From Cladorhizidae sp. MBARI D1340-BT2 (Eukaryota; Porifera; Demospongiae; Poecilosclerida; Cladorhizidae): 64,000 nucleotides of DNA. The notes beneath the pieces were generated by a model, which saw only the letters and a program-made list of their open reading frames with translations, made no database searches and had not been told where the DNA came from. The position numbers were made by a program, and so were the translations under genes. This document shows positions 3,514 to 49,655 of the stretch, piece after piece; the stretch's first letter is position 1; every line of letters begins with the position of its first letter. The DNA is taken from assembly GCA_028752905.1 (NCBI GenBank), contig JAQNBH010000009.1:30733442-30797441 (forward strand). Direction: 5' to 3'.

Positions 3514-4816
3514 CTAAATGTCTTCAAATGCAAACTGTCCTCGATTGCCTGCAACACTCGGTGGGTTAATGATACGTACAATTTTGTTTCTTGAGTAGAA
3601 GATTTTGTCTTCAGGTCTAGGCCACTTCCAAGGATTTTCACTTCTATGCATGACGTTTACTTCAATATCAGAATCCTCTATACAGGTCACCTTCCCTGGA
3701 AACACTTCACCATCATACTCCATTACAACACACAATCCAATTGTCAAGTTCAGTGCTGGTAGCTGAAGCCGGGCATTGTCTTCGTATAGACAATCCTGTT
3801 GAATTGTTGAATTGGTCGGAGGAGTGACATCATTGGTTTTGCGGATTCAACAAACTCGGAAACATTTCTCTATCTCATTGCAAGTATCGGCTACTTTGAC
3901 CTCATCTGCACCAGAAGCTTGAATACAATGAACTTTGTGTGTTTGGGGGATTGCCATCACTCCTTCCCATTTGGCATCCAGAAATGCAGATTGTTGATCA
4001 ATCTCACTCTTGGCAACAAATTCAACTTGAATATTTGGGCAAAGCTGTTTGGCGAGTAACTCAATACTCTAGCGGAGTGTTGATATGACTTCTCTCTGAC
4101 CGAATGTGTCTCCAAACTGCCCTCTTTATTGTCCCTCCAATCCCATCTACGACACCTTTTCCATGAGATGTAGCCAAAAAATTCAATCTGATAGAGATGT
4201 CATGGTCTTGCTCCCAGTAGTGGAGATTTGAAAAGAGGAACCTCTGCTTAAATTGAGAAGTTGGACCATCGCTGAAAATATTGACAGTTTCTATGCTTGG
4301 GAATTTCGCTCGGAGACTTCGAAAAATATACTCTGACATGAAAACGAAAATGATGTATTTTGTGTGGTCGAGGTGATCTGAAATTACAACCATACTGAAA
4401 TTTGTGGCATTGTTGATCCAAGTGTGAGTGGTGAAGATGGTTGCCTGAGCGTGGGGCCAGTGTGCTGCTTGTACTTCTTTCTGTCACATTTTCAGAGAAA
4501 TCGACTTGCAAAACAATGGCTTTACCATCACAGGAGTTCTTCAAGGAGTCTGCTTGCTCTCTCTTCACAAAGGTATGGAGTAGGAAGGACTCAGCTGTTT
4601 CTTCAGCTCATTAAAAACTGCATCTACTGTATCAGTCATGTCTACCTTCTCAATTCGGCTATCCGTAGACTTCCACTGGTACTGGAAGGACCCTGAGCTG
4701 CTTTGTGGTGCAAACTCATCAATCAGATCCACACAGGTTGAGCATTCTCGTGTCATGCACTTCTTGGAAGTGGCGTCACAGGTCACTTCATCAATGAAGG
4801 AGAAACAGGAACACAT
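3514..4816 (-). pseudogene. Decayed gene of an uncharacterised repetitive metazoan family (SHGK motif, Tudor-like C-terminus)
   Basis: Not a named family to me, though I recall similar hypothetical proteins in sponges and cnidarians. Reading leftwards: a Cys-rich start (CDATSKKCMTRECSTC) at 4816-4730, a W-K-rich stretch, then VLQVDFSENVT at about 4510, QAAHWPHAQ, SDHLDHTKY, FSDGPTSQFKQRF, ATSHGKGVVDGIGG and TIKRAVW. A C-terminal block at 3514-3747 reads MEYDGEVFPGKV, then WKWPRPEDKIFY, like a small Tudor/chromo-type barrel. Conserved D (FSDG) and SHGK residues could be catalytic, as in DDE enzymes, but that is guesswork. Breaks: frameshifts near 4490 and 4075 and a stop near 3846. The repeated nature of the family suggests a transposon or transposon-derived gene. 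Identity as one decayed gene is fairly secure; function is unknown. Confidence 0.6.
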
Positions 4817-5181
4817 TTCCCAAGGTCTTGCACTCCCCAGCTGTTCTAGTAAAGTCTAGCAAAACATTGCTGCATCTTACTTCCCCACTCCCCAGCTTCC
4901 CTACTAGTCTTTACAGAAGGGATGTAGATTCATATTCACCAGTCCTTCCCAAAAAGTGATGCCTGTAGCACACAGAAAGGATCCTAGTGAACTATGTACT
5001 TCTTAACAGATCTTGTAACTTCCTCAATGCCAGCTGCTAAAATAGTTTTACTTGCAGGCTAGATAGTGTATGTATTTGGGGAATGACTATCAGTTTGTAA
5101 CTATAACTCAAGCAGCAGCTTTGTTTGTTTACCAGCCTACCTTCCTGGCTACAGGCTCATGCAGCTTTGTTTCTTTACACA
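4817..5181. other. No gene recognised
   Basis: Spacer between the start of the SHGK-type gene and the minisatellite. Nothing coding or structured was seen. Confidence 0.4.
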
Positions 5182-5745
5182 CTAACCTCTAACCATAGTC
5201 ATTGTCCAAGCCATAACCCAAGCGTAATCCTAGTCATGGTCCAAGCCTTAACCTGTACAAGTCATTGGCCAAGCACTTACTCGAGTCATTGTCAAAGCCC
5301 TAACCCTAGTCAATGTCCAACCCCTAAACCTACCCTTTATACCCTTTGTCAAAGACCTAACCCTGGTCAATGTCCACCCCCTAACCCCTAGCCTTTGTCA
5401 TAGCCCTAACCCTGGTCAATGTCCAGCCCATAACCCTAGCTTTTGTCCAAGCCCTAACCCTGGTCAAGGTCCAACCCCTAACCCTAGCCTTTGGCGTAGA
5501 CCTAACCCTGGTCAATGTACAACACCTAACCTTAGCCTTTGTCCAAGCACTAACCCTAGTCAATGTCCAACCTCTAACCCTAGCCTTTGTCCAAGCGCTA
5601 ACCCTGGTCAATGTCCAACCCCTAACCCTAGACTTTGTTCAAGCCCAACCCTGGTCAATGTCCAACCCCTAAACCTAGTCTTGGTCCACCCGTTACCGTA
5701 GTCAGGGTCCAAGTACTAAACCTATCCTTTGTCCAAGCCCTAATC
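5182..5745. repeat. Telomere-like minisatellite, 24-bp monomer in 48-bp dimers
   Basis: About a dozen 48-bp dimers or partial dimers. Each dimer holds two 24-bp halves: TAACCCTGGTCAATGTCCAA plus CCCC, and TAACCCTAGCCTTTGTCCAA plus GCCC. Each half starts with TAACCC, so CCCTAA(CCC), the animal telomere repeat, recurs at every unit boundary. Edges are more diverged than the middle. Because 48 is divisible by three, both strands give long repetitive open frames; these are artefacts, not genes. Confidence 0.9.
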
Positions 5746-6525
5746 TTGTCAGCTGTATAATGGTGACAATCAGTCTAGTCAGTTTAGAATGTTCTAGAAA
5801 ATGTAAGGTAGAAAACTATAAATAGAAGATTGAATTAGTGCTGTAGCCATTCTAACTTTTCTGAAGATCGAATTGTCAATGGCCGAAAGACAAACAAAGA
5901 AAAGGGTAAAGATTAAGGCTGTAAAATAACAAATTCTAAATCTTTTAACAATGTCTAGATGGGAATTTGTTAAGCTGTGACGTACGTAAGTACGTGATGG
6001 ATGTACAAGAATGTCACAGGTTTTTCTGTAAGTCATGGGTGTGTGGCCTTTCCATTAAGGGTGGAAGTTATGCCTAAAAGAAAACTAAAAGAATGAAAAT
6101 AGTTAATACTTTAATATCACTGAAATACTTAATAAAGATGCACATATTTGTGATCTATGTACGGCATCAATTATATTCTGAAACTACAAACCGTAAAATA
6201 TTATTTAGTGGGTGTAACCCCAAAAAATCCATTGAATCTACTTAAAAATTATAAATGATCCAAATACACTTAATTTGGAGCAAAACTCAATTCCCAAATG
6301 TAGGAAGTGTCTGATCTAAAACAGAATCTGTTACTATGGCAATTACATAAAGACGATGAGCATATCTCGTTACCCGTTTGTCATATTGGGTTAAAAATTT
6401 GCAGAATATGAAACTTTATTTATTTAGCTTCAAAATGGTGTATAAGAGCATACTCAAATCCCATTTTGAAATTTTGACCCCTTGGTTGACATTTTCCGGA
6501 ATTGGCCTGTTAATACATTATGTAC
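5746..6525. other. No gene recognised
   Basis: AT-rich. It includes two GTGA(C/T)G-TACGT words at 5977-6008. A frame at 5794-6036 (-) is not recognisable. The right part may include the 3' flank of the hAT pseudogene, but no terminal repeat was found. Confidence 0.4.
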
Positions 6526-8848
6526 TTATAAAGCTATTCTATTACATTTAAGTTTAAATCTATCAACAACATCATCAAGATCAACAGGAAAACTATAATG
6601 AATATGCACCAATGCTAATGCGGATAATCTGTCCTGCCCCACGCTACTATGTAAGAAAGTTTTAAGGTTTTTTAAGGTACTATTGGCCTTCTCATTCTCA
6701 CATGATATGACTGGAATAGTACATGCAATGTGCAGCAGTATGTAAAGGTTAGGAAAGTAATCCTTGTCACACTCTTTCAGAGCTTGAAGGATGGATGGCC
6801 GCTTGTCAGCATCATGACTCTGCCACTTTGCCCTCCACCTTCACACCTCAGTAAACAGAAGTGCAAGTACTTGGCAAGTCATCATTATATAAAGAAATCA
6901 AGTCCTCAAAAGATATATCATCCCAAGTAGTGATTATAGAAGGTTGGGTCTTACCAAACCTATCATTCATTTGTTGAACTAAGTGGTCCAATAAAGGAAG
7001 CACAGCATTTCTTCGATAGTATTCTTCCACAGAACTGTAACTCCACATTAATTCTGTAAATTTGTCGATCAGATACATGTGGGACTTTAGGAACCACACC
7101 AACATCATAAGCTATAGTTTCAGCTTGCACATACCATGAATGTAACATTTCCTCACTTTGACGAACTACACAAAGTTCATTCAGTACGTCTTTAACATCC
7201 ATATAAGCTTTAACTATATTACTACTTTTCTTTTGTAATTTTAGACATATAGGTTTTATAATAGACATAGAATTCATTGTTGCTATGAAATATATTAAAG
7301 AAGGAAAGGAAAGGTACATCTTGAGCAAGCCATTGGCTGCCACAATTATTTTCATATCCCAGCTCATACCCATGTAGTTTCACGTTCTGTAATTGCTTCC
7401 ATTGCAGTTACAAGGAATTGATACAAAACATAAAAAATTTCATAGGCGTTGTGCCGATAAATAAATCCTATTTGCTCTACAAAGATGCTTAACTTTAACA
7501 ACGCTAGTTACCTTATCAATTACTTTCTCAAGAAATAGTTGCAGCACTATAATGGAAGAAATATGCTGTCTCACTAACAGTAGAAATCATATTACGAATA
7601 GGAGGTAAACTATACACAAGCTTCAACAAACAAATTAAACACGTGACTATTACAGTGGATATATGTGGCTTTAGCATTTTCTGCCAAGAGATGACCCTGC
7701 ACACCCCTTGCACTAGACATATTGCTAGCACCATCATAGCCTTGTCCCCTACAATATTCAAGGTCTAAGTCAAACTTATTCAGTGCTTCTTTTATTGCAA
7801 GAGCCAAAACCTCTCCAGTGATCCTTACTATACTTATGAAATCTAAGAATTCTTCTCTTATATTACAATTACTATCTACAAATCTTAATACTACTGACAC
7901 CTACTCCTTACTGGATATATCGACCACTTCATCACTAAGAATAGAATAATATTTAGCTTGATTAATTTCCTGTATTATACTATCTCTAATATAGTCACCT
8001 ATGCATTCAATGAGTTAATTTTGGGTAGTTTTGCTACTATAAGTTGCATTTTTTTAAAGATGCTGCAACTTTTCCGGACCTCACAGAGTATTCAAGCAGT
8101 GCTAAAAAATTCCCTCTGTTGACCTCAGAATCAGCCGTGCTATCATCTCTGTGACCTCGAATAGCTTGCCACAAAGAAGTATTGCATCAGCCATACATCT
8201 TATTATGTACCTATTTTTTGCTATGTTACTCTCATCTATATGCAGCAAACGATTCTTAATAGAAGACTCTGGACACACATGAGAAGACTCTAAAGCATCT
8301 GCCCGAGCTAAAGCCAGATGATGGCACTGTGTACAGTTGTGACTGGCAAACTTTTTAGTTTTTCTAGACCATGCATTAAATTCATTACATACAAAATGAC
8401 CCAAACCCTTTGTAGCAAAGAGAACACATGGCAAACAAAATATTCCATCTTCTACTTTACTATAAACAAACCAAGGGTTTTCAGCCTAGTATTTATGTTG
8501 ACAAGACCTATTACAGCCATCTAAATAACTACTTGGAAATGTAAATGAACTATAAGGCTTAAAATGATTAACTAAAAGTGAATACTTGCACTCTGGAGCC
8601 AAATTCAAGAAAACTGTTTGGGACATTGATAGCATAATCAAGCCAATATCGTTACACTTCTCAAAATCAATTGAAGCACTTGACGAAGAAGCAGCAGAAA
8701 AAGTGGACAAGGAAGTGCAGGGCAGATGAGACACGGAATGAGAGGGCAGGACAGAAGCGGAACATGAAGGCGGTAATAGTGCAGGCTCAGTAGGCTCAGG
8801 GGGAGAGACAGATACACAGAGCCTGAGGGCTGGGTGGGAGACACACAC
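6526..8848 (-). pseudogene. hAT-superfamily transposase (zf-TTF/DUF4371, ZMYM1-like), decayed
   Basis: A DNA transposase that would cut and paste its own element. Domains in order leftwards: a Ser/Pro-rich low-complexity start (8848-8670) from a GGCTGGGTGAGAGACACAGA-type tandem repeat; a TTF-type zinc finger with DGIFCLPCVLF and KFASHNC (8434-8250); DUF4371 RNase-H-like core (SDEVVDIS, then CRGQGYDGASNMS near 7740, the usual G-DGA-NM motif); a helical region (LHSWYVQAE, VGVVPKVP); and the C-terminal hAT dimerisation domain at 6700-6530 (VISCENEKANSTLKNLKTF, then GQDRLSALALVHIH). Many frameshifts and stops separate these pieces, so it is dead. No flanking 8-bp duplication or terminal repeats were located. 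Confidence 0.85.
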
Positions 8849-17491: not shown

Positions 17492-19400
17492 TGTGTTGAA
17501 GCATTGAGAATAATGCCAGCATTATAGGCAGAAGTACTGATTCCAAGCATTATAGGCAGGATTTTGAATACATGATGCCAAAAAATCAGACTGGACACAA
17601 GTTTAATTTTATACAGCAAATATCTATGCACACAAAATGTAGTGTATGCATATTATCTATCACTTAGCATAGGCTATATTTTTTATACTTGCTAAGTAAT
17701 AGATCATAGGCAAAGCAGTACATTTTGCATTGGTAAGGCAAATATATTATAGTGCAGGGGATCTGGCCATGCCCAATTTTGTATAACCATACCCTGTACC
17801 TTTCCCACACTTATATAGACAATTTAATACAATAATATGAATGACTTAACTTGAAATTTTGACATTCAGCATCTTGATGATACTGTATTTAGAAAAATGA
17901 AGCTCCTACAATGGTAAGATAGAAATGGTAAGAGATATAAAAATTAAATTTTGCTAGCTATTTTAACGCAGCACGAGCATCCTTCCAGTTAGTGTAGCCT
18001 TTGGTAATAAAACCTAGATCTCTTCTGTTATAGCTAGTCCAATAGGCAGCAAGTTCCTCTGATTTACTTTTGAGCAATAACATAATCACTGGCTTCTTTG
18101 TAGTTTAAAACAGCGTTTTTCTCCCTTGTTACCAAAAGAAAGACTAGGAAAGTGAAAAATCATTGGCTGATGAGTAGTTTGTTTGGTAGTTTCACTTTGT
18201 CTTCAACGTTACACAGTCACAGTAGCCGACAACTATGAGCAGGCTGACCACGAGACTAATTATAATGGTGCGATCACGTGATATGGGCGTGGTCACTAAG
18301 TGTGTGTTGTTTAGGGAAAGTATTGGCCAGGCAATTGCCTGAGCTGCCTGACCCAGCGTTATGCCTATGTAGATGCATATAGATGAATGACTAGACTCAT
18401 GTGACTAACTAGACTAGTCTGACATGTGACTAACGAGACTAGTCTGACATGTGACTCATCTAGCTCACTCCTAAGGACTGAAAAATGGCTGAATGTGCAA
18501 GTGATAGTTTTTCTGAGACTGAAGAAACTCAGCCTGACCCTGAAGCTCCTGTTATTCCGAACACCAGCAGTTGTGTTACCATTGATGTTCCCAGTCTTTT
18601 GAGTAAGCTGAGAAGTCCTGACCAACAGACCTGTCAGGAAAGAGGTTATACACTAATACTCCCACTGGCTTGAAGCGGGGTAAGGGTGGTGTGGCTACTG
18701 AGCCCACTGTTCTCCCTTCAACAAGGATCAAAGAATTTTCCAACGAATATCTCTCTGTGGTATCAAGAAAATTATTTTGTGAGTGCTGTAGAGATCTGAT
18801 AAAAACAGTGTATTGCTTCAACATAATTATTAAATCAGCTAAGCATACTAGTGGCAAAAAGCTAAACGCTTCGAAGAAAGTGCAAGATCAAAATGTAGCT
18901 GATATGTGAAAGAAATATGGTGCAGACAAACACCTAGTTGGAGAAAATCCTTCAGATGAAGTCGGAGTCTTTCGAGTTAAGATGTGAAATCGTTTTTGAA
19001 AGCTGGAGTTCCTCTTGCAAGATTGAGTGTTTTAGAGAAGTATTTGAAGAAATTGCCTTCAGACTCTCTCACAGTAATAATTTATGCCATTTATGCAAGA
19101 AGTAGTTGTAGTTTGCCAGCATCAAAAATAACATGAATGGAAAAGTAGAAGCTGTAATCTTTGATGGAACAACCCATGTGTGTGAAGCAAATGGTTATAG
19201 TAGTTGGTTTTGTGGATGAGAAGTGGCAACTACAACAACGTGTTGTCGGGCTAATGTTGCTAGCTAAGAGCCTTAAAGGCGATGAATTGGCCAGACAGTT
19301 GATTATGGCCAACTTGGTATTGTCTCAAATCAGCTTATAGCTTATAGGAAACTTCACAAATTGTTACTGGAACAATGTAGATGAGCAATGTGTAAACAAT
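17492..19400 (+). mobile_element. CGGBP1-like hAT element remnant H1 (5' half)
   Basis: Starts TGTGTTGAAGCATTGAGAAT, shared with H4 in inverted orientation (54,743 leftwards). Two direct copies of AGCATTATAGGCAG lie at about 17,516-17,568; the same word is in the 3' region of H3 and H4, so it looks like a subterminal transposase-binding repeat. The leader also has a palindrome AGGCAATTGCCT near 18,330, an E-box-like ATCACGTGAT near 18,274, and 25-bp repeats around ACTAGACTAGTCTGACATGT (18,390-18,465) just before the ATG. The 3' half is missing. Confidence 0.7.
18485..19380 (+). pseudogene. hAT transposase N-terminal half (BED-type finger), H1
   Basis: Starts MAECASDSFSETEETQ. A C2H2/BED-type finger follows, with LFCECC, then HIKSAKH-SGK (C-x2-C...H-x5-H) near 18,775-18,860. 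Next is a segment LKAGVPLARLSV near 19,000 and the core motif VIFDGTTHVCEA near 19,160. Frameshifts occur after KLRSP and after the finger. This architecture matches CGGBP1-like proteins, which are derived from hAT transposases. Ends around 19,380; no C-terminal dimerisation domain here. Confidence 0.75.
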
Positions 19401-23796: not shown

Positions 23797-26150
23797 CTAG
23801 GAAACTACTTGGTGAAGTCTACCGTGGTGTTTGAAAAAATAGTCCCTCTTTGTGACACACAGTGGTACTTTGCAGTGACGGTAAATATACTTGGTCTCAT
23901 GGCGATTTGAGATTCCAGACATTTTTCCAACTGCTACACAGACAACACACCTCTGCTGTTTGTCAATTAGTGCTGACCAACGCAAAAGCGTGGTGTTCAG
24001 CCACTCTAGATGCTCGTTATGAACTGAGCGAGGGCGGCCAGCACGCTGACGTGAGCAGAAACATCCCACTAGTTCTTTAGCTATCTCCAACCTGAAGGTC
24101 CAAAAATTTCTCTTCCTGTAACCCCTGGCAAGGTGATCTGCTCTGCGGACATGAGATTCTAGAACATAGCTGTTCAGAATGCATGCCTCAACCATATATG
24201 CAAACACCCTCTTCCACCACTTCTTACTCCTCCTCCCTATATTATAATAACCAGTCATCTGGTTCCCAATATCCACAGCTCTCATATACTTCTGGTAGTC
24301 CACAAGTAGGGATGGGCAAGACACATCCACCTGAGCTCCAAGAAGGCGACGCCTCTTCACTGTGGTGGCAGGCTCAGCAGCATGGAAAGTGGACAAAATA
24401 TTATTGTCCACACAAACTACACAAGTAGTGGGCCATTAGACCTGAAGTCATAATGCCAATGGTTACCTTTGGTTGCCTTCAAAATCAAATCCTTTGGATA
24501 GGATCTGCGATTGCTTCACACAGTACCACAGGCATTGATTCCTCTGTTGTACAGAGTAAGGTAGAGGATGGGGCTGGTATAGAAGTTGTCTGTGTAGAGC
24601 TCATGTCCACTACCTTCCAAACCGCACAGCCCGACATCTGTATTAATACCTAGTGCCTTACCAGTGTAAACCTGAAGCTTGTGGATATAGCCATTAGTGG
24701 AATCGGCCAGTACAAATACCTTGATGCCGCATTTGGTAGGCTAGTCTTTCATGTACTGTTTGAACCCCAAGCGTCCCTTACATTTGATCATGGCTTCATC
24801 AATTGAAATTTGCTGGTGAAGGTTATACTCCTCAGCAAACTTCGGAACAATCAAGTCCAAAATAGTCGCAGCTTACCAAGGCGATCGTGCCCAGGCTGGC
24901 TAGGTAATGTGGTCACAAGCAAACTAGTTGGATTAAAAAAACGGAAAAATCTGCTTAAACCTAACTATTGGCATAACCCCTGAAATTCCAGGAGTTGAAA
25001 TAAGGTATTCTAGTGTGGACCAATACAAATTCAATCGAGGCAACTTCAAAATCCCCATGTAAATAAGGAGCTCAAGAAAAGCTTTCTGGAACAGTAAGAG
25101 GTACCCAGTCGCGGGGACGTGGTGTTTGACTATATGTCTTCTTTGCATAGCGATTAGTCTCTGTTACAAGCAGGGTCCACACTTATTCAGTAAAAAATAA
25201 AAAATTAAATATCACACACTGAAGAGGAGGAGGTTACATCTGGAGAAGTAGGTCCAGGCACTACTGAATAAGAGAAGTGGGTAGATGATGACTCCTCCTT
25301 CCTCCAACTTCCAACTACCACAGCCAAGTTGTCGGTTACATAGCTACCAGATGGAGGTGCTCGAGCAGGTTGGGCTGCTGGAGAATTAGAGGAGGGACTA
25401 TCAAAGGTACTAGCTGAGAAAACAGTAGAAGAAGCAAGAGACAGAGCTAAAGAAATGCTGGTAGGTGAAGTCCCAGAAAGAAAGAGAGGACTAGCTTAAG
25501 GCAGAGCAGAACTTGAAGCACTAGAAGCTATTTCACTACTACTACTCTGACAAACTCGAGCATGACGAATACTCATAGTGCTACGACTAAGCTGAACAAC
25601 TGGTCGTGAATGAGAGTGCGAGGGTAAAAATAAAGGAGGGCATGACGATGGAACAGACAATGATGATGATGGAAATAGTATAGAAGTGACTACAGACATC
25701 ACATAAGTCATAGAATCTAATGCAGAGGTTACACTACCTACATTTGTAGATACTGTTAGGAACAATGGAGAAGGTGATGAGGTAGCCATCACAGCAATAG
25801 GAGGGCTAGCAACAATAGATTGGGCCATAGTGTTGATGAAGCTCTGTTAGCTGCCCAATCCATCGCTTCATGCATCAAACCTGAAGGGGTTAAAAGAAAT
25901 TGGCATCAAATAATTTTACTGCGGATTACAAGTAACAAGGAAACTAAAAGAGCATTGCAGTTCCATGCTCTGCGTTGCTAACAGCTATAGCTAAACTGAA
26001 GCTAAACTGACTGTAAATACCTTCTTCATCGCTGGTATTCTCATCTCCATCTAGATCGGCACCTCGAGTTAAAGCGCTACGCTTCCTTGAAGGTAGCGAC
26101 TATTCTGCCAAGCGATAGCAGAGCTTCAGGGTCAACATGGCTCTGGCCAA
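23797..26150 (-). pseudogene. piggyBac transposase P5 (best preserved in the window)
   Basis: Cuts and pastes at TTAA. In order leftwards: acidic start with SDEEGDG and DENTSDEEG pieces (26,150-26,020), probably split by introns; a Ser-rich linker (25,828-25,260); PRLNLYWSTLEY (about 25,040); SIDEAMIKCKGRLGFKQYM (first catalytic Asp, about 24,800); VFVLADSTNGYIHKLQVYTG; LYTDNFYTSP (second Asp, about 24,590); GINACGTV; and an intact 204-codon frame at 23,797-24,411 with MRAVDIGNQMTGYYN, KKWWKRVF and a C-terminal Cys/His-rich ring-like tail (CVVCVAVG, CKVPLCVTKRDYFFKHH). A stop follows YMKD and frameshifts occur further upstream, so it is probably inactive, though the C-terminal exon is clean. 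Confidence 0.85.
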
Positions 26151-36665: not shown

Positions 36666-37775
36666 TTACTGTTCATAAATATTATGACCAAATCGATGAA
36701 AAGGTTGTTTCATCCTGGTAGGGTATCTTTTGTTCCATGTCGGAGGAACTTGATTCACTGGAAGCATATTTTGTGGGGAATTTCCTTGTGGTGGAGTCTC
36801 GTTGTCATCTTCCAGCGTATCTGACTCATACTCATCTTCTGAGAGATCTGAACACTCGATATTCGAACTAATCTTTTTGAACTGAGATATGTTTTGTGTA
36901 ACATACTTACCGTTCCTGATCGCTGTGATCATTGTTCCTATTTGTCTCACTATTTGGAAAGGTGATGGATTAAACTTTGTGCTGAACTTGTTCTTCTTTC
37001 GCTGACGTAGGAGAACTGTATCACCAATGTTGAGACTTGAGACTTGAGCTCGGGCTCTTCTGTCTGCATGCCCTTTCATTCTCTCTTTGGCTCGTTTATC
37101 TTTTTGTTTAACTTCCACATCATTTCCTAGAGTGTCAACATCCATTACCACTTGGGCAAGCTTGGTTTTGATCTTTCTGTTGAACAGTAATTCAGATGGG
37201 GAAACTCCAGTTGTGCAGTGTTGTGTAGCTCTGTAATTCAACATGAATCGGTACTGATCTTTCTTCCAATCTCTTCCTTCAGCATTCGATGAACGAATTG
37301 CTTTTGTGAGGGGTTTCATAAAGTTATCTGCTTCTGAATTAGCTTGTGGCCACAATGGAGTAATCTTCTGGTGAGATATTCTATTCTCTTCCATATAAGC
37401 TTTAAACTCATTTCCGAAAAATCGTGGTCCATTATCAGTCTTGAGAACTCTTGGAATTCCGTGTGTGGCAAAGATTCTGTCAAGCTTGGAAATTGTTCCT
37501 TTTGCTGCTGTTGATTGTACTATTTCTACTTCAGGAAAACAAGAATAGGCATCTATCGTAACAAGTAGATATTCTCCAGTTGGGAAAGGTCCACAGAAAT
37601 CAACATGTACATTGTGCCATGGCTCTGGAGGCAATGTTGACATCTGGAGAGGTTCAGGACGATTTTCTGGACCATTGGCCTGACAAGCAATGCAATTATC
37701 AATCTGTTGCTTTACTCTTGCTTCTATTCCTGGGAACCATACTTTTCTCTGAGCAACTTCATTGTCTTAACAATT
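36666..37775 (-). pseudogene. G1 integrase domain
   Basis: The C-terminal part of pol inserts the cDNA. A zinc-binding HHCC start (AHEGHQ, then CIACQANG) is split by a stop (GGA to TGA) and a frameshift near 37,700-37,790. From 37,643 the frame is open for 325 codons: HVDFCGPF (first catalytic D), LKTDNGPRFF (second D), PQANSEADNF (catalytic E; G to S beside it), YRATQHCTTGVSP, then a basic C-terminal part with NIGDTVLLRQRKKNKF (GPF/Y-like module). There is no chromodomain. Confidence 0.9.
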
Positions 37776-39250
37776 CATTGGTGACCTTCATGAGCCAACA
37801 TAATTGCTCTCTTTCGTAGTGAAGTTGGTATTACGATGCGATTTCCACGGAGTATCACACTTTCATCACTACTAACAGTGAGTTCATTTTTGACTGTTTG
37901 AAAAAGCTTGATATCTGCGATGTCTGCCTCGGATGTGGTCTGCTCTTTCCACTTATCAGTTCTGATCATTTTGGATATCTGCTGCAAGGTTGGGTCAGCT
38001 GTGGTTGCTTCTCGAATCACTGACAACTTCATAGCCTTTGGTACTGCGTGAGCAGATAAGAAATTGACATAGTCCTCTGCCATGGTTTGTTGTTTCATTG
38101 GTTCCTCTGAGTTTGTATGTCTTGAGAGGTTATTGGAAGGATTCTGGTTTCCTTTTATATGTACTATTGAGAAGTCATATCCTTGTAGTCTCAGATTCCA
38201 AAGTTCGATGCGTGCTGGAGGCTTGGACTTTAGGTTTACCATAAATCAATTCGACTGGTTTGCAGTCGGTGTAAAGGGTAAAATGTCCACCATAGAGATA
38301 TAGATGAAACTTTTCAATAGCCCACACTATGGCTAATGCTTCTTTCTCTTTCTGAGAATACCTGCTTTCAACATCAGAGAGTGCTCTGCTTGCAAAAGCT
38401 ATTACTCTTCTGTGATTCTCTCCCTGCGACTTTTGAAACAGTATTGCTGAGAGACCGACCGGTGATGCATCTGTGATCAGCTCAGTTTCCTTTTGTTGAT
38501 CGAAATATGCCATGATTGTATCACTTGCTAATAGCTGTTTGATTTTTTGAAAAGCTTTGTCATGTTCTTTTGTCCATAAGAAATGAACAGCCTTTCTGGT
38601 CAACTCACGTAACGGCTGTGATATGTCACTTAAGCATGGTATAAATTTTGCACAATATGTTGCCATTCCTAGAAAACTTCGGATACCACTAGTTGATGTA
38701 GGAGGATTGGCGTCATGAATTGCTTGTACTTTCTTAGGATCAGGTGAGATTCCTTTGTCCGAAAATACAAAACCAAAGAATGTCAACGAGTTCTTGCTGA
38801 ATTCACACTTTGTCTTGTTGAAAGACAAACCGACTGATGAGAATCTCTCAAAAACTGCATGTAGAGCCTTGTCATGATCAGCTTGAGTTTTCCCAAATAT
38901 TATAACATCATCACTGATGTTGATTGATCCTGCTATGTCCCGAATCTGTTCATGGATGATGTTTTGAAAAATCTCACTTGCTGAGTTTGTTCCAAAGTTC
39001 AGTCGAGCATAACGTCTTAAACCTTTGTGAGTCATGAACGTTGTGATATATCTGCTCTCAGGTGATAAGGGTATTTGATGATATCCTTGTCTTAAATCAA
39101 GTTTTGTAAAAACTGTTGCTCCATTCAGGTTGTGAATAAGATCATCAATTGTTGGACTAGCATATCTCTCTCGGTTGATTGCCTTATTAGCTCTCCTCAT
39201 GTCAACACATAAACGGACCTCGCCATTCTTTTGGGGGATAATGACTAAAG
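37775..39250 (-). pseudogene. G1 reverse transcriptase and RNase H
   Basis: The RT palm reads FTKLDLRQGYHQIPL (first Asp), then INISDDVIIFG, where the YxDD box is I-S-D-D; both catalytic aspartates remain and this NISDD form is, from memory, common in K02A2.6-type gypsy elements. RNase H follows with ELITDASPVGLSAILF, SQKEKEALAIVWAIEKF and LYTDCKPVE. The frame is open for 341 codons (38,175-39,200) then shifts and continues at 38,242. Another shift near 39,240 separates it from the protease. Confidence 0.92.
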
Positions 39251-39857
39251 GTGAAACCCATGGAGTTGAACAACTTTCTCAATGATTCCTTGTTGTTCAA
39301 GGTTGATGAGCTCTTTTTCAACTTGTTTCCTCATGTGAAAAGGAATTCTGCGTGTTGCTTGAGCCACATGAGGTACATTTGTGTCAATGTGAAGTTTGAC
39401 TTCTGTATTCTTGAGCTTGCCTATACATTCAAATAAATTGGGATATTTTAGTACCAGCCTGTCACAAACTCTTGAACTATCCCAAACATGCTTAATCTTA
39501 ACATGAACCAGACCAAGTTCACATGCTGTCTTGTAACTGAGTAGAGACCCGTGACTTCCTCGTAGTACATGAATTGTTGATAGTACTGTCTTTGTATCAA
39601 CTTCAATGTTGGTGTCAAACTATCCCACTACTGTAATCTGGGAGTCTTCACCATATGCAAATATACGCTTTGTTGAAGGCTGTAACTCAAGATTCTTCGT
39701 TTGGTTTACTTAGGCAAATGTTTCCTCATCCATGATGTCTGTGGATGCTCCTGTGTCTACAATCATGCAAACCGTGGTGCTATTGATTTTCACATTTACT
39801 TTTGGTGCTGCCAAACGTGCAGTGTCACCCAATGTGTACAGATATTCATCACTAATG
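39251..39857 (-). pseudogene. G1 protease and RT linker
   Basis: The retropepsin motif is in CMIVDTGASTDIMD (39,730-39,770), with the catalytic Asp present. The linker continues through VHVKIKHVWDSSR and YPNLFECIGKLKNTEVKLHI toward the RT; in-frame stops lie near 39,710 and 39,630. Confidence 0.85.
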
Positions 39858-40706
39858 CTACCACACTTTTGGTTGGACTGATGAAACGTAACAAATTTGC
39901 TTGTGCTTGTGTTTCGGTTGGTACTCATGTGTTTTGTATCGACCTTGTATTTCTTTTGGTTTTGAGAGACATACTTTGGCAAAATGATTACTTTTACCAC
40001 ACTTATTACAAGTTTGACCTTTTGCTGGACATGAGCCATTCTTATGGGGCCACAAAAATCCACACTTATGACATATACTCTGACCTTCTGGTTTTGTCCA
40101 TGTTCGTGGTTACTGCCATTTTCTGGGTGGTCGCTTCTGCTGAATAACATTCACTGCTTCTGCTGCTGAGTGTGCCAGTTCAATTCCTTTTGCTTGCTCT
40201 TCACTCACTTCTTGCGCTCTTGCTTTAGCTAGTAGAGCCTCTAAGGATAGATCATCACGAAGTGCCATTCTTCTTAGATGTTTTGACTGACAATTCTGGA
40301 TGATAGTGGACTTTAACTCTTTTCCCAGGTCAGTAAATTCACATGTGGAAGCTAATCTGGTAACAAATTGATCCACAGTCTCTCCTGATTGTTGAACAGC
40401 TTTACGAAATTGGAAAATCTCGTACGACACATTTTTCTTGGGTGTGAAATAGTTGTCTAACTTTTCCATAGCTGTGGCAAAGTCATCTCCTGTATCTGGA
40501 ATTGTGTCAAAAATTTCTTGGGTAGCCTGTCCTGCCTGATACAACAGGATTGCTTTCTTTTGCTTGTCGTCACTTACGTTGAGCGCTGCTATATATATCT
40601 CGAAACGCCGCTTCCAACTTTTCCATCACTGGCTTAGCGATGATGGATCTCTCATAGGGTCAAAGGTTGCTGATGGTGACAAGTCAATTCTTCCGGCTAC
40701 TGCCAT
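39858..40706 (-). pseudogene. G1 gag (capsid and zinc knuckles)
   Basis: The ATG at 40,706 follows the primer site. It reads MAVAGRIDLSPSATFDPM; an in-frame TGA (40,626-40,628, codon 27, in place of an expected Arg CGA) interrupts the frame. The capsid has ALNVSDDKQKKAILLYQ and then QFRKAVQQSGETVDQFVTRL. After a frameshift near 40,110 come two zinc knuckles, CHKCGFLWPHKNGSC and CNKCGKSNHFAKVC. The gag-to-protease boundary is not separated by a stop in this frame, suggesting one gag-pol polyprotein. Confidence 0.9.
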
Positions 40707-42600: not shown

Positions 42601-42896
42601 GGGTGAATCCAGGATTTCACTTCTGGTTTAAATTGAAAATTGAGTATTTGCATGCTATATATATTGCATGCAGGAAGAGTTTGCATGACCACCCACACTT
42701 TCTCATGATCGCTCTTTCAGTTGAATGATATATATACTGTATATTTACTCCACAGGTTTGGCTAACCTCAGTCCTGTACCCTCAAAATCCCTCTAAAACC
42801 TACCAACTGTCAGTGGCCCACCACATCATATTCAGTATATTGACCATTATGTCATTATGTATAGCATTATAGCTATAGGGTAAATGTACACACATA

Positions 42897-42931
42897 TGTG
42901 ACCGAATTTGCGAAAACCCACCTAAACGGGG
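42897..42931. repeat. Element X left TIR
   Basis: Identical over 35 bp to the complement of 45,473-45,507. It begins TGTGACCGAA and ends CCTAAACGGGG. Confidence 0.95.
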
Positions 42932-43675
42932 TTTTTAAAAAAAGTGAAATTATTTAATAATCGGCACCTATGATACCTAATGATCATATCCTAAAAGTTT
43001 GAAACTATTTGATAATGTTTCTTTCGAGCTATAGCATGAATAGTTGCGCTCCTTCAAGTACAACAATAGGATTATTGCGTTTATAAAGCGTTGTCAGGGG
43101 CGGATGAAACGAAGCCGTATACTTCCGTAAACGTGTAATTAGAGCTATTACCACGCCCTTGGCGTTCTATTGCCACGCCCAGGGTCTAAAAAATTGAAGG
43201 ATAATATGGACGACTGGAGTAGGACTAAGCAGTGGTCAGGTACAAATTAGTTAGTTAGGAATTGTAGAAAGAGTTGATCAGCTATGTTTGGCTAATCTTG
43301 CGTAGTTTTGTTCCAGCTATTGCCACGCCCTCGGCCTAAAAAGATGGAAGAATAGTATGGACGAATGGAGTAAGGACTCGTTCTAAGCAGCGGTAAGTAG
43401 CAGATTAGTTAGTTAGGAGTTGTATATGTTGTAGAATGAGTTGATCAACTATGTTTGACATCTAATCTTATGTAGTTTGCTTCTGTAACAAAGTTGAACT
43501 TTATTGATTCTTTAGAAACAAGTTGAGAATAAATTATGGTAAGTTCACCTCTTATTATTGCTAGCTTGCTTCTAGTTAAACATGTTTGCTACATTTTCAT
43601 GTGACTTATCTGCTAGAAAATAATGTTTGCTAGCTAACTAGTTATGATGTACAAACTTTATGATATAATAAGAAG

Positions 43676-45217
43676 CTATGATGAATAAAGTTGACATCTT
43701 CTTTTAGGTGATGGGGTTATGTTCTGAGGAGGCAAGGTGCAGTTGATTGGGAGAGGCATTCTGGTTGCAGGACTTGGATCAGGACAAACAATATCCTGAC
43801 AATGAGGGGGACAGAATTCTCGTATTTTTTCGAAAAGGTATTTCTTCCTTTCTGGAGTAAGACCTTCTGGTATAATTGTGGGGGGAGTTCATTTTTATGT
43901 GGCTTCCAGTCTTTATACTGTTCCACTAGAAGAGGCAGCCTTTTCTCTATCGCATCCGTCCCTGTCCTGACCATAGCAACTCCTGGTTCTTTTGATGAGA
44001 ACTTCAAGTGGTGAAATGTCTTGATTCCAACAAATGCCTGTCTCCTGTAGCACTTTGTGAAGTAGTTTGCCCAGTTGTACTGTGGAACTAAAATAGTTCC
44101 GTCTTCCCTCCCCACCAACTGGGCATTGTTCGCTTTTGCGGAACTGTTGACAACATCAGCAATGTCTTGTAGGCACCCGACCTTTGTCCTTCTGTATTTT
44201 TGCTTCAGCAAGCCAAACCTGACTACATTCCTGGTGACAGCCAAGGGCAGTCTGTTGTGAGGTAGCCTTTTGTGGTTGCCATGTTCTCTTGTAGTCAGAC
44301 CCACAGCAGTGTAGTGGGTTTTGAGGGATTTAAATCTGTCTATTCCTGGAGTGTTATGGTACATTGTTGTACTGTAATAATATTTCCCACAGTATAGTAT
44401 GACATTGTACCTACCAATACTATGCAGCATAAGGAAGGTGACCTTGCAAATCCTCAAACCATGGTGATAGAAGACTATCCTGGACCTCTGCCGTGGTAAT
44501 GTGGTATGGTGTGATCCTTCCCCTACTGTGTCTTCATTATTAATATTAGCCATAATTTGTCCCAGGATTACCATATCGACCTGTTCCCTGCTCAGTGATG
44601 CACATTGGTCTCTCACGTCTTGGTAGTGCTCTGCAGTAAACTGTGAGGAGCATGGTTTTCCTTTAAACATCACACAGCCACACACCCCTTCAGCAAGAAT
44701 GCTGTAAGTTTGGGATCCTAATGCCATGTTTATTATGCAGATGCCATGTGTTACACCTACAATAAAGGGAAGTGCTGCTGGCTCAAGTGCTATTGATGAA
44801 GAAGGCTGTGGTAGTGATGATGGAGTCTGGGATGGGTGTCCGCTCAATGGTGAGAAGAGGTCCTCCTCAAGAGTGGAGAAGAGAGGTGGATCTTCATCAC
44901 CACAGTCATCATCTTCTGAAGATTCTAAATTTCATTTTAATGTATTTTTTATAGTATTAAGTATTATTTCGTATTATATCATGCTTTGAAAGTTACCATC
45001 AGATTCCATTACTTCATTGAACTCGTTGTCTTCAGTGCCTGTACAGTAAAATTCAATGATCTATTGAGGGTGTAAATATTACCATACTTGGCCCATCCAA
45101 GGTGAAGTAATCTGCTAATAGTTCATTGAGGGCGTGTTCGTCAGAGCTTCCTACCAGGTCTCGTCCTTCCCTGGCCCACCTGTTGAGAGTGCTGGCTACG
45201 TTCCGTGAACTGGACAT
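43676..45217 (-). CDS. Element X gene: three-exon protein of unknown family (candidate transposase)
   Basis: Exon 1 is 45,217-45,088 (ATG; MSSSRNVASTLNRWAREGRD), exon 2 is 45,038-44,997, exon 3 starts at 44,924. Introns are 50 and 72 bp with GTATGG..TGTACAG and GTAACT..ATTTAG borders; both junctions are phase 1 and the frame carries through exactly. The N-terminal ~100 residues are acidic/Ser-rich (SSEDDDCGDEDPP). Then come CGCVMFKGKPCSS, LSREQVDMVILGQIM, ICKVTFLMLHSIGRY, TTREHGNHKRLPHN and VGREDGTILVPQYNW. A G6 run (43,880-43,885) is one base short of keeping frame; beyond it the frame reads EGLTPERKKYLFEKI, a CPPHC-x4-C cluster and stops at 43,676, about 474 residues in all. I recall similar hypothetical proteins (HGN...R.P, ERKxYL motifs) as multi-copy in sponges and corals, but cannot name a domain. 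Being the only gene between perfect TIRs, it is the likely transposase. No DDE triad is assigned. Confidence 0.75.
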
Positions 45218-45472
45218 CGCTACTACAGGATTGCAACCAAACTTAGCGCGCCTAATGCGCGCGAAAAGAGCATAGCAACGCCTCCGTTCACGAACGGTAA
45301 GTATCGACCTATCTTACAGTGAAGGCTTATTTCTCCTTCTAGAAATAGCGCCTGGGCTTATGACTGCCACTGGTTTATATATAAAGGATAGTTATAGCCA
45401 TTGGCACAAACACCAAAAAATCGTCTTTTAAAAAAAAATTAATAAAACTGCAATATCTCAATTAATGCTTTC

Positions 45473-45507
45473 CCCCGTTTAGGTGGGTTTTCGCAAATTC
45501 GGTCACA
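45473..45507. repeat. Element X right TIR
   Basis: Complement matches 42,897-42,931 at all 35 positions. Identity suggests recent activity or a recent insertion. Confidence 0.95.
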
Positions 45508-45702
45508 TATTTACCATTAAAACATTATGTATTGTAGATGGTAAATTTGAACATTATTATTACCACCATGTAGAGTGTGGATATAATCAGACTATCATTG
45601 ATGATTCAAAAAATGTTTCGTTGAATAGAGAGTAATGTAACAATAAGTGCAGAGAAACAGAAGTTTGATGCTATAAAGCAATAACCAGTGAAGTGTAAGG
45701 GT

Positions 45703-45900
45703 TTATAGTACCAATATTTTGCGAGTTTGACTCGAGACAAATTCTTCAACCACTCTTTCTTGTGTAATACTAATCTTTTTGTGGTGTTGTAGCATTGCAA
45801 GTGCATTTAGTTGCTCCTGTGACATCGTACTTCTAAGACAAGTCTTGAGAAAACGTAACACACCGATAGACCTTTTGACCTCACATTTTGTAGTTCAATT
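45703..45900 (-). pseudogene. hAT transposase C-terminal fragment in R1
   Basis: Reads KCEVKRSIGVLRFLKTC, then MSQEQLNALAMLQHHKK and a short tail ending ILVL-stop: the hAT C-terminal dimerisation segment (usually CE-x-ERSFS-LRRLKTYLR). Same family group as the ZMYM1-like hAT at 6.5 kb, but a different element. The upstream part is absent, so R is a 3'-end fragment or a non-autonomous derivative. Confidence 0.7.
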
Positions 45901-46276
45901 ATTTACCATGACTGTGTCTTGGTGATTTCTAATGCACTCACAAACCAAAAAATTAAAAATCAAACCAAAAAATTTGCAGTTTGTTTTAGAGTTTAACAAA
46001 AAGGAGAGTTTAACAAAAAGGTCATAATTTGTCTCCTGGTTTACACCCAGACTGGTGGCATGTAGCAAAAATATTTGTGTTAGCATGTTTTTAAAAACCA
46101 AAACAACAACAAACAAAACCTAGCACAATTATACATCATTTACAGATGCCCTCCTCCAGGATGGCCGAAATTAATATAATTATGCATCTCTGGAATGGTC
46201 TATTAATTGATGCACTCCTACGGGATGGCCTGTGTCATGCAAATACTTCTACTATCTCTAAGGTGTCTAGTATCCT

Positions 46277-47519: not shown

Positions 47520-49655
47520 ATAATTATTGGAGAATAACAGATGCTTCAATAGTCTCTTCCAATGTAGTGGTTTGTCATTTGGAAAAACTATTAGACAAAA
47601 TGGAGAAAACCCGCTCTGCTGCTGCAGAGAATGGCTGCACTAGCAACGCTAATTTGCAAGCAGCAGACCAGTAAGAGAGTTCATTTGTGTACTTCTTTCA
47701 CCACTCCAACCTATCCACCTCAGGATTAACACCATCCACTTTTGCCAGGTAACTAGGAAGCTCTTTTTTTCCCTTCAATTCGATTACTGAGGAAAGGAAA
47801 GGCGTTCAAGTGGTCAACATCAGTTGAGCATGGTTTAAGTTCAGAGATCTTGACTGGATCGAAAAATCTAGCATATTTGAAAGCTGTAACAATTGGTTTA
47901 AGATCACCTTCGAATTTCTGCTTGAAAGAAGTGATAGCAGGCTTGATACATTCAGTTGCATAACTAATTAGCTGCTGCATATTAGTTGGCCTGTTTGAAG
48001 ATAACTTTGTGGCAACAGCATTAGTATTAGGGAAATTTTGAGTAGAATAGTAGCATGAACTGCAGCGATTTCTTCATATGCATTAAGAGCAAGTGGCCCA
48101 TCCCCTTCCAGTCGATATGTTGCTTTCAGTAACGATTGGCTCACCAAAGTCAATTGTGATTGCAACTTCCATTTGCAATTTTCGATTCTTAGGAGGTCAT
48201 TGAGAATATCCCAAAGCTTTTGTTTGGTAGGTGGGAGACCATTATTTTCAAGGAAGGGATGAACTTCCCCCAAAGCATCAAGCATGTGCTTCATTACCTC
48301 CCATTTCGACCAACATCGAGTGCTTGAATAAGTAGGGACTGGCAGACCTGTGGTTTCTCTCAAGCCAGTTTTGTCTTTGGACTTCATGTAAAAAGTCCAA
48401 CCCAACCTTTAACAAATTCAGCAAATATGTTTGTACATATATTCTCTCCAACATGAACAAGAGTATGTGAGAAGCACCCCACATCTAGAATACAAGGGTA
48501 AACAATTTATAGAGTTTGAATTGGTATATACAATATTAACCGAAGCATGATCATGCATAGCTGATTTGAGACAATACCAAGATGTCATTATGTATAGCAT
48601 TATAGCTATAGGGTAAATGTACACACATATTTACCATTAAAACATTATGTATTGTAGATGGTAAATTTGAACATTATTATTACCACCATGTAGAGTGTGG
48701 ATATAATCAGACTATCATTGATGATTCAAAAAATGTTTCGTTGAATAGAGGGTAATGTAACAATAAGTGCAGAGAAACAGAAGTTTGATGCTATAAAGCA
48801 ATAATCAGTGAAGTGTAAGGGTTTATAGTACCAATATTTTGCGAGTTTGACTCGAGACAAATTCTTCAACCACTCTTTCTTGTGTAATACTAATCTTTTT
48901 GTGGTGTTGTAGCATTGCAAGTGCATTTAGTTGCTCCTGTGACATCGTACTTCTAAGACAAGTCTTGAGAAAACGTAACACACCGATAGACCTTTTGACC
49001 TCACATTTTGTAGTTCAATTATTTACCATGACTGTGTCTTGGTGATTTCTAATGCACTCACAAACCAAAAAATCAAAAATCAAACCAAAAAATTTGCAGT
49101 TTGTTTTAGAGTTTAACGAAAAGGAGAGTTTAACAAAAAGGTCATAATTTTCTCCTGGTTTACACCCAGACAGGTGGCATGTAGCAAAAATATTTGTGTT
49201 AGCATGTTTTTAAAAACCAAAACAACAACAAACATAACCTAGCACAATTATACATCATTTACAGATGCCCTCCTCCAGGATGGCCTGTGTCAGGCAAATA
49301 CTTCTACTATCTCTAAGGTGTCTAGTATTCTAGCACATAATCAACTGTCTGGCCACTTCTTCGCCTTTAAGGCTTTTATATAGCTAGCAACATTAGCCTG
49401 ACAACACATTGCTGTAGTTGCCACTTCTCATCCACAAAACGAACCACTAAAACCATTGCTTCACAAACATGGGTTGTTCCATCAAAGATTACAGCTACTT
49501 CTTTTCCATTAATGTTATTTTCGATACTGGTAAACACAATTAATTGGCGTAAATTATTACTGTGAGAGAGTCTGAGGGCAATATCTTCAAATACTTCTCT
49601 AAAACACTCAATCTTGCTTAGAGGCTCCATCTTTCAAAAACGATTTCACATCTTT
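47520..49655 (-). pseudogene. hAT transposase core and C-terminus H3
   Basis: Leftwards: CFREVFEDIALRLSHSNNL, VAVIFDGTTHVCEAMVLVV, RFVDEKWQLQQ (49,630-49,380); interruption by R2; MHDHASVN near 48,555; TGLPVPTYSSTRCWSKWEVM (48,350-48,290); ATYRLEGDGPLALNAYEEI (48,125); FEGDLKPIVTAFKYARFFDP; and a dimerisation region with EWWKKYTNE, LLVQPFSAAAERVFSIL (47,660-47,600) ending near 47,520. Frameshifts near 48,450, 48,000 and 47,770. The sequence matches the hAT group that gave rise to CGGBP1-like proteins. Inactive. Confidence 0.85.
48582..49332 (-). repeat. Repeat R, copy 2 (empty site for element X), inserted in H3
   Basis: 751 bp, collinear with R1 but without element X; the TA at 48,628-48,629 is the intact target. 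It splits the H3 transposase between ARQLIM and VLSQISYA. It contains the same hAT C-terminal fragment (48,823-49,020). The termini on the two sides look weakly like an inverted pair (ATTATGT-GCTAGAATA versus ATTATGTATAGCATTATA). Confidence 0.85.

Follow-up and report, generated by a model that had tools for sequence, protein, structure and literature searches.

An internally deleted transposon of a cladorhizid sponge and the predicted DUF7869 transposases of animals and bacteria

A 2,611-bp element bounded by identical 35-bp terminal inverted repeats (TIRs) lies at 42,897-45,507 of a 64,000-bp stretch (the window) of contig JAQNBH010000009.1 from the sponge Cladorhizidae sp. MBARI D1340-BT2 (positions 30,733,442 to 30,797,441, forward strand). 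The segment is a cut-and-paste TIR DNA transposon: its inverted repeats are paired, and an empty copy of its site is present in the same window. We hold with good confidence that it is an internally deleted TIR transposon, likely TA-inserting, whose full-length relatives encode DUF7869, a predicted DDD (DD41D) cut-and-paste transposase that also occurs in bacterial insertion-sequence-like elements. A wider proposal is somewhat favoured by the data: DUF7869 would be the transposase of an unnamed superfamily found in animals as well as bacteria. Its members would have a mariner-like DD41D core, target TA and have retained a common TIR code (TG, 16 nt, AAAACCYACCT) in both groups; the Desulfobacterota elements and the sponge-like window would then stand at opposite ends of a single lineage that has passed from one domain of life to another.

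Results

The element and its empty site

The two TIR arms are complementary at 35 of 35 positions. When up to three mismatches were allowed, the outer 26 bases of the TIR matched the window at two places and no more; the number expected, estimated from 100 shuffles, was 0.00. Perfect 35-bp TIRs around 2,611 bp had been described in a sequence-only reading of this DNA, and that description is correct. Two direct repeats of about 150 bp each (43,167-43,308 and 43,317-43,478) are found within the element and are 76% alike; the stretch 43,167-43,478 could be a transposase-binding region or a captured repeat.

The element is carried by one copy (R1) of a repeat, and a second copy (R2) in the window represents the empty site. 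R2 is identical to R1 over 49 bp to the left of the junction; to the right, 663 alignment columns contain six substitutions and one 1-base gap (98.9%). The filled site reads CACACA-TA-[TGTGACCG...CGGTCACA]-TA-TTTACC and the empty site CACACA-TA-TTTACC. The net gain of R1 over R2 is 2,613 bp, and the R1 flanks, when joined, give the R2 sequence with a single TA. The alignment of the flanks across the junction thus agrees with the earlier claim that R2 is the same repeat without the element.

Every possible reading of the filled and empty pair was enumerated. In three of them the ends are symmetric: an insert of 2,613 bp with a 36-bp TIR and without duplication, one of 2,611 bp with a 35-bp TIR and a TA duplication, and one of 2,609 bp with a 34-bp TIR and an ATAT duplication. 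The AT reading leads to unequal TIRs, the 3-bp readings ATA and TAT are possible but leave inverted repeats unequal by one base, and a TATA duplication is given by none of the readings enumerated. The TA reading is preferred because it is conventional and because it aligns the end in the window (TGT) with the bacterial ends at TGG. Insertion at TA is likely. A TA duplication as a proven fact was rejected since three symmetric readings fit the junction, and the statement in the sequence-only reading that sequence alone fixes the boundaries and a TA duplication could not be upheld. Its argument for recent movement has a weak basis as well: the divergence of R1 and R2 dates that repeat and not the insertion, and 35 identical bases carry little information on age.

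R1 and R2 are copies of a repeat of about 750 bp, which itself apparently sits within a different host repeat: without the 750 bp, the R2 flanks match 19,147-19,335 (minus strand). The element is therefore nested in a likely mobile repeat. Near 46,160-46,222, R1 contains about 64 extra bases that are absent from R2.

A transposase without its catalytic core

The main open frame of the element, on the minus strand, joins N- and C-terminal parts of a DUF7869-family transposase, and the copy is assigned to the family because of this homology at both ends. About 288 residues, the catalytic core, are missing between residues 165 and 454 of the relative P0010. For 11 of the 12 best relatives among 123 proteins, the N-terminal match ends and the C-terminal one begins at codon 239; in the twelfth, P0025, they overlap at codons 218-239. 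The deleted part contains the motifs SFDYAQQ, ADNCxGQNKN and GHTKFxPD; no core was found elsewhere in the window by tblastn with P0001-P0005. As the catalytic core is gone, a working transposase is not expected from this copy, which we read, from its sequence, as a dead, non-autonomous derivative.

The 404-codon frame alone gave no match in Pfam or among PDB sequences. Three frames of the window scanned against Pfam were without a match; the copy being deleted, a second open reading frame (ORF) with YqaJ could have been lost from it. A single spliced gene of about 474 residues had been modelled earlier. That model is correct in part: the main frame has 404 codons with a likely unspliced 69-bp intron, it shows a change of frame and lacks the core, and the 474-residue product was not reproduced. 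The frame change, at 43,880-43,885, is possibly a frameshift or a sequencing error. The remark that the protein has no Tc1/mariner look says nothing on the family to which it belongs, as the catalytic core is deleted.

The DUF7869 family and its predicted core

Five relatives were obtained in the initial protein search, three of them with the Pfam domain PF25273 (DUF7869), and 1,598 predicted proteins were matched in one search with a family profile. The best full-length relative of the window protein is from Halichondria panicea. Named animal relatives come from this species (gene LOC135332176), Oculina patagonica and Montipora capricornis; many others are unnamed. These hits bear out the suggestion of an uncharacterised family of sponges and corals, though not its restriction to these animals, as bacterial elements carry DUF7869 too. 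A Pfam search leaves the window protein unassigned and places its relatives in PF25273: the domain is present in 73 of 73 A3 members and in the proteins of the bacterial loci L001, L002 and L005.

Full-length relatives encode a protein of about 640 residues. An RNase H fold with D330, D409 and D451 (P0010 numbering) is predicted for P0010 and for the L002 protein, and the fold that the sequence-only reading had proposed to look for by structure prediction is thus predicted in intact relatives. The spacing between D409 and D451 is 41 residues in P0010 (DD41D), and it is the same between residues 434 and 476 of the L002 protein. Both of these acids are present in 33 of the 33 rows of the careful tree described below, and D330 in 32.

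Bacterial counterparts

A collection of bacterial and archaeal genomes, covering 84,980 species by its description, was scanned with the A3 profile. This one scan yielded 13 loci with DUF7869 relatives, in eight of which the gene is a single open frame. At six loci (L001-L005 and L010; Desulfocicer, Thiomargarita and others) the gene lies between paired inverted repeats. These elements measure 2,058-2,717 bp from TGG to TGG, and their TIRs are identical at 30-35 of 35 positions. Four loci (L006, in which the contig starts inside the gene, L007, L011 and L013) have the repeat on one side, and no end repeats were detected by the patterns used at L008, L009 and L012.

L002 is from the isolate Desulfocicer vacuolatum DSM 3385 and lies on a 147-kb contig. 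The left end of this element (4,256-6,889) falls where an ORF encoding an integrase core (PF00665) ends, and this ORF appears to be cut off by the element; the sequence beyond the other end contains no obvious continuation of that ORF. With the L002 protein as query, 551 of the 7,996 candidates scored matched at E<=1e-3. Most of the 120 matches listed are unnamed, and the legible names are hypothetical protein and, once, chaperonin. The DUF7869 protein P0141, from Candidatus Magnetoglobus multicellularis, bears the public name 'chaperonin', likely a misannotation.

L009 (LWTN01000138.1, from a metagenome-assembled Cycloclasticus genome of a poecilosclerid sponge) was rejected as a bacterial element: its frame is broken, and it groups on a long branch with animal-type proteins. 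It is probably host sponge DNA in a bacterial bin. The proteins of L008 (Nitrospirales), L010 (Desulfobacterales) and L012 (Thiomargarita) are divergent, with long branches, which suggests a deeper diversity of the family. Among viral contigs the profile detected no relative; eight stretches matched a pattern, none of which was confirmed, and two TIR patterns remained unmatched. A tblastn search of plasmids and phages with the Desulfocicer protein was also negative.

Homology links the proteins of animals and bacteria. A careful tree was built from 33 rows; in it, one branch with support 100/100 separates the animal-labelled rows (15, of which 4 are named) from the bacterial-labelled rows (18, of which 8 are named), a split that is independent only for the named rows because the unnamed ones were labelled by their originating search and a quick tree. 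The careful tree was built without the window fragment, L001 (the P0226 protein), L006, L007, L009-L013 and most of the 243 proteins. In the quick tree of 58 rows, the window fragment has a long branch and groups with the sponge rows (SH-aLRT 90).

Comparison of animal and bacterial ends

Counted from the outer end, 16 bases precede AAAA both in the window TIR (TGTGACCGAATTTGCG-AAAACCCACCTAAACGGGG) and in the bacterial ends, for example that of L006 (TGGGGTGTTATCTGAG-AAAACCTACCTTCGGGTGA). Ten bacterial loci have such ends, and AAAACCTACCT is present without change in five of them (L002, L004, L006, L007 and L011); equally far from its end, the window TIR has AAAACCCACCT. Nine bacterial ends were compared with the window TIR over 35 positions (Table 1); those of L001 and L010 were not included. 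The comparison suggests that several bacterial inverted repeats and the window TIR have kept the same end-recognition code. With such a code kept, the whole element and not the gene alone would be shared, by descent or by transfer.

Table 1. Bases shared by nine bacterial ends with the window TIR, and number of controls reaching the same value
End	Shared bases (of 35)	Shuffles of window TIR (of 20,000)	Window 35-mers, both strands, TIR included twice (of 127,932)	Shuffles reaching gapped local alignment score (of 2,000)
L002	20	1	7	7
L003	19	5	34	27
L004 left	19	4	15	0
L004 right	20	0	3	3
L005	15	322	1,813	711
L006	20	0	3	0
L007	18	14	98	7
L011	17	56	257	4
L013	16	111	628	209

Discussion

DUF7869 elements are probably a superfamily-level lineage of DDE/D transposons and would resemble the IS630-Tc1-mariner (ITm) group in mechanism. 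Binding of the inverted repeats would be the task of the N-terminal, Cys-rich and helical part of the protein. By analogy with ITm transposases, the RNase H core (D330, D409 and D451) would then cleave the element at its two ends and insert it at a TA, and repair of this target would leave a TA on either side. The window copy, in which the core is lost at codon 239, should be unable to mobilise itself. It would either have moved non-autonomously with transposase supplied in trans, or have lost its core after insertion.

Several observations weigh against the two proposals made at the outset. TA targeting is deduced from one filled and empty pair that is also compatible with no duplication or with ATAT, and one copy of the element is known, within the 64-kb window. 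The link between these TIRs and an intact animal DUF7869 gene is made by the deleted copy in the window alone; the protein of that copy has no Pfam match because the deletion took away the DUF7869 domain. None of the sequence-level links to a named transposase was significant. On the bacterial side, AAAACCTACCT is off by one or two bases in L001, L003, L010 and L013 and is lacking in L005, and the 16-nt register had been seen before it was tested. This register also depends on where the ends are placed, because the inverted repeats of L002-L005 run 3-5 bases past TGG and no empty site fixes the bacterial ends. The nine comparisons of Table 1 are not independent, given the kinship among the bacterial ends. 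TA occurs within 0-4 nt outside both TGG ends in five of the six paired elements, L002 being the exception; the offsets on the two sides agree in L003 and L004 but in no other element. Direct repeats at the six paired elements disagree in length and offset (the best is TTATGA, at L005), and a bacterial target duplication is not claimed here.

The alternative that has to be taken most seriously, although we consider it unlikely, is that DUF7869 is a divergent Tc1/mariner transposase with nothing new at the superfamily level. This would explain the DD41D spacing, the TA junction and a core resembling Mos1. Foldseek searches with the core model gave five matches at E<=1e-3, all to mariner Mos1, and a helix-turn-helix domain (HTH_28) is weakly matched in 6 of the 73 members (best E 0.033). 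The accessible part of PMC7386202 lists DD41D as one of the Tc1/mariner families. The elements also resemble the ITm group in having TIRs, TA at the junction and a predicted RNase H core with three acids. On the other hand, retroviral integrases are closest to the core model in the VIA comparison, scoring as high as Mos1. The A3 profile matched no PDB sequence at E<=10, and hhalign of A3 and A4 with the Mos1 catalytic domain alone gave 0.3% probability, the short aligned stretch preceding the third acid. DUF7869 is found in all 73 members, with no Tc1/mariner DDE family among the 25 Pfam families listed of 33. DUF7869 proteins gave no significant sequence or HH match to Mos1, and they differ from the ITm group, Mos1 included, in having about 640 residues, a Pfam family of their own and their own motifs ADNCxGQNKN and GHTKFxPD. 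With the full-length model, Foldseek gave no match at E<=1e-3 (the best was TnsB, 3.1e-3); the viral structure library gave none at E<=1e-3, and in NCBIfam no family reached its cut-off, the one match (E 0.19) being unrelated.

Could the element still be useful to its carrier? The in-frame fusion retains a predicted DNA-binding part and could repress full-length copies, as in deleted P elements. The frame is kept across P0010 residues 165/454, and its 404 codons run without a stop. Against this, a junction has a one-in-three chance of being in frame, the frame changes near the C-terminus, and the putative first exon has a best match of only E 0.039. We regard a repressor function as improbable.

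A relationship of the transposase to the ISAzo13/Zator lineage is very doubtful. That lineage makes 3-bp duplications, as the portion of PMC10045372 consulted has it, and 3-bp readings give unequal inverted repeats here. The domain PF07592 (DDE_Tnp_ISAZ013) is matched in 2 of the 73 members, with a best E of 8.3e-4 (P0084, over the core) that is below the curated cut-off; the remaining 71 have no match to it.

It is hardly credible that R1 is the original state and that R2 arose from it by exact removal of the element, even though two repeat copies with this junction are all that the window contains, since the extra piece has the anatomy of a transposon and exact loss restoring an empty site is rarer than insertion for cut-and-paste elements.

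The reading of DUF7869 as a transposase family shared by animals and bacteria can also be set beside other known systems. Sailor (DD82E), described in the available portion of PMC8533490, is an ITm superfamily of prokaryotes and eukaryotes with a protein of up to 676 residues, mostly short TIRs and a TATA duplication. Like Sailor, DUF7869 elements occur in prokaryotes and eukaryotes; their spacing is 41 followed by D, against 82 followed by E in Sailor, and a TATA duplication fits no reading here. IS481EU, IS3EU, ISL2EU and the other pairs of PMC10045372 are comparable in that a eukaryotic family has a bacterial insertion-sequence counterpart. DUF7869 is not among the pairs described in the accessible text of that paper, and the duplications and proteins differ. 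ISL2EU elements have an AT duplication, and most carry a second ORF with YqaJ, going by the part of PMC4482050 at hand. Pfam assigns no function to PF25273. Neither DUF7869 nor PF25273 is named in any paper of the literature searched, and broader searches gave no title recognised as describing the family.

If the proposed explanation is true, this Pfam domain gains a function, that of a DNA transposase, and a testable active site. Bacteria would gain a new insertion-sequence family; the few names among its listed members are 'hypothetical protein' or, once, 'chaperonin'. A pair of insertion sequence and animal element would be added to a short list (IS630, IS1380, IS1016, ISAzo13, IS256, IS5/ISL2, IS3 and IS481); further pairs between insertion sequences and eukaryotes are expected by Kojima and Bao, in the passages of PMC10045372 available. 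Because the protein and the inverted repeats can both be compared, a direct test of transfer between domains is possible, namely whether a bacterial enzyme acts on animal ends.

Features of the window

Table 2. Positions of the element, its parts and its empty site in the window
Feature	Position	Strand	Remark
Left TIR	42897..42931	+	35 bp (34 or 36 under other symmetric readings); 35/35 complementary
Right TIR	45473..45507	-	35 bp; with the left arm, sole window matches of the outer 26 bases
Left TA, likely target-site duplication	42895..42896		Filled vs empty site
Right TA, likely target-site duplication	45508..45509		Filled vs empty site
Repeat copy R1, carrying the element	42843..46276		
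Repeat copy R2, empty site	48582..49332		
Lone TA of the empty site in R2	48628..48629		
404-codon open frame, in-frame fusion of the two terminal parts (N and C) of a DUF7869-family transposase	43717..44931	-	
Deletion junction, codon 239	44215..44217	-	P0010 residue 165 meets residue 454; blastp coordinates
Likely 69-bp in-frame intron (GT...AG)	44346..44414	-	Insert absent from relatives in alignment A1; splicing inferred
Six-base homopolymer run, change of frame in C-terminal homology	43880..43885	-	Two overlapping frames match P0001, P0002, P0005
Transposase C-terminal end in other frame	43676..43888	-	
Possible first exon (MSSSRN...)	45053..45313	-	Best short blastp match P0019, E 0.039

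Two other elements were noted in the window. Remnants of a Gypsy-like retroelement occupy 36,666-40,625 (minus strand); their separate frames hold an integrase core (PF00665, 6.9e-10) as well as reverse transcriptase and RNase H domains (PF00078, PF17919). The C-terminal part of a transposase (PF13843, E 2.4e-12), which we take to be of piggyBac type, is present at 23,797-24,435 (minus strand).
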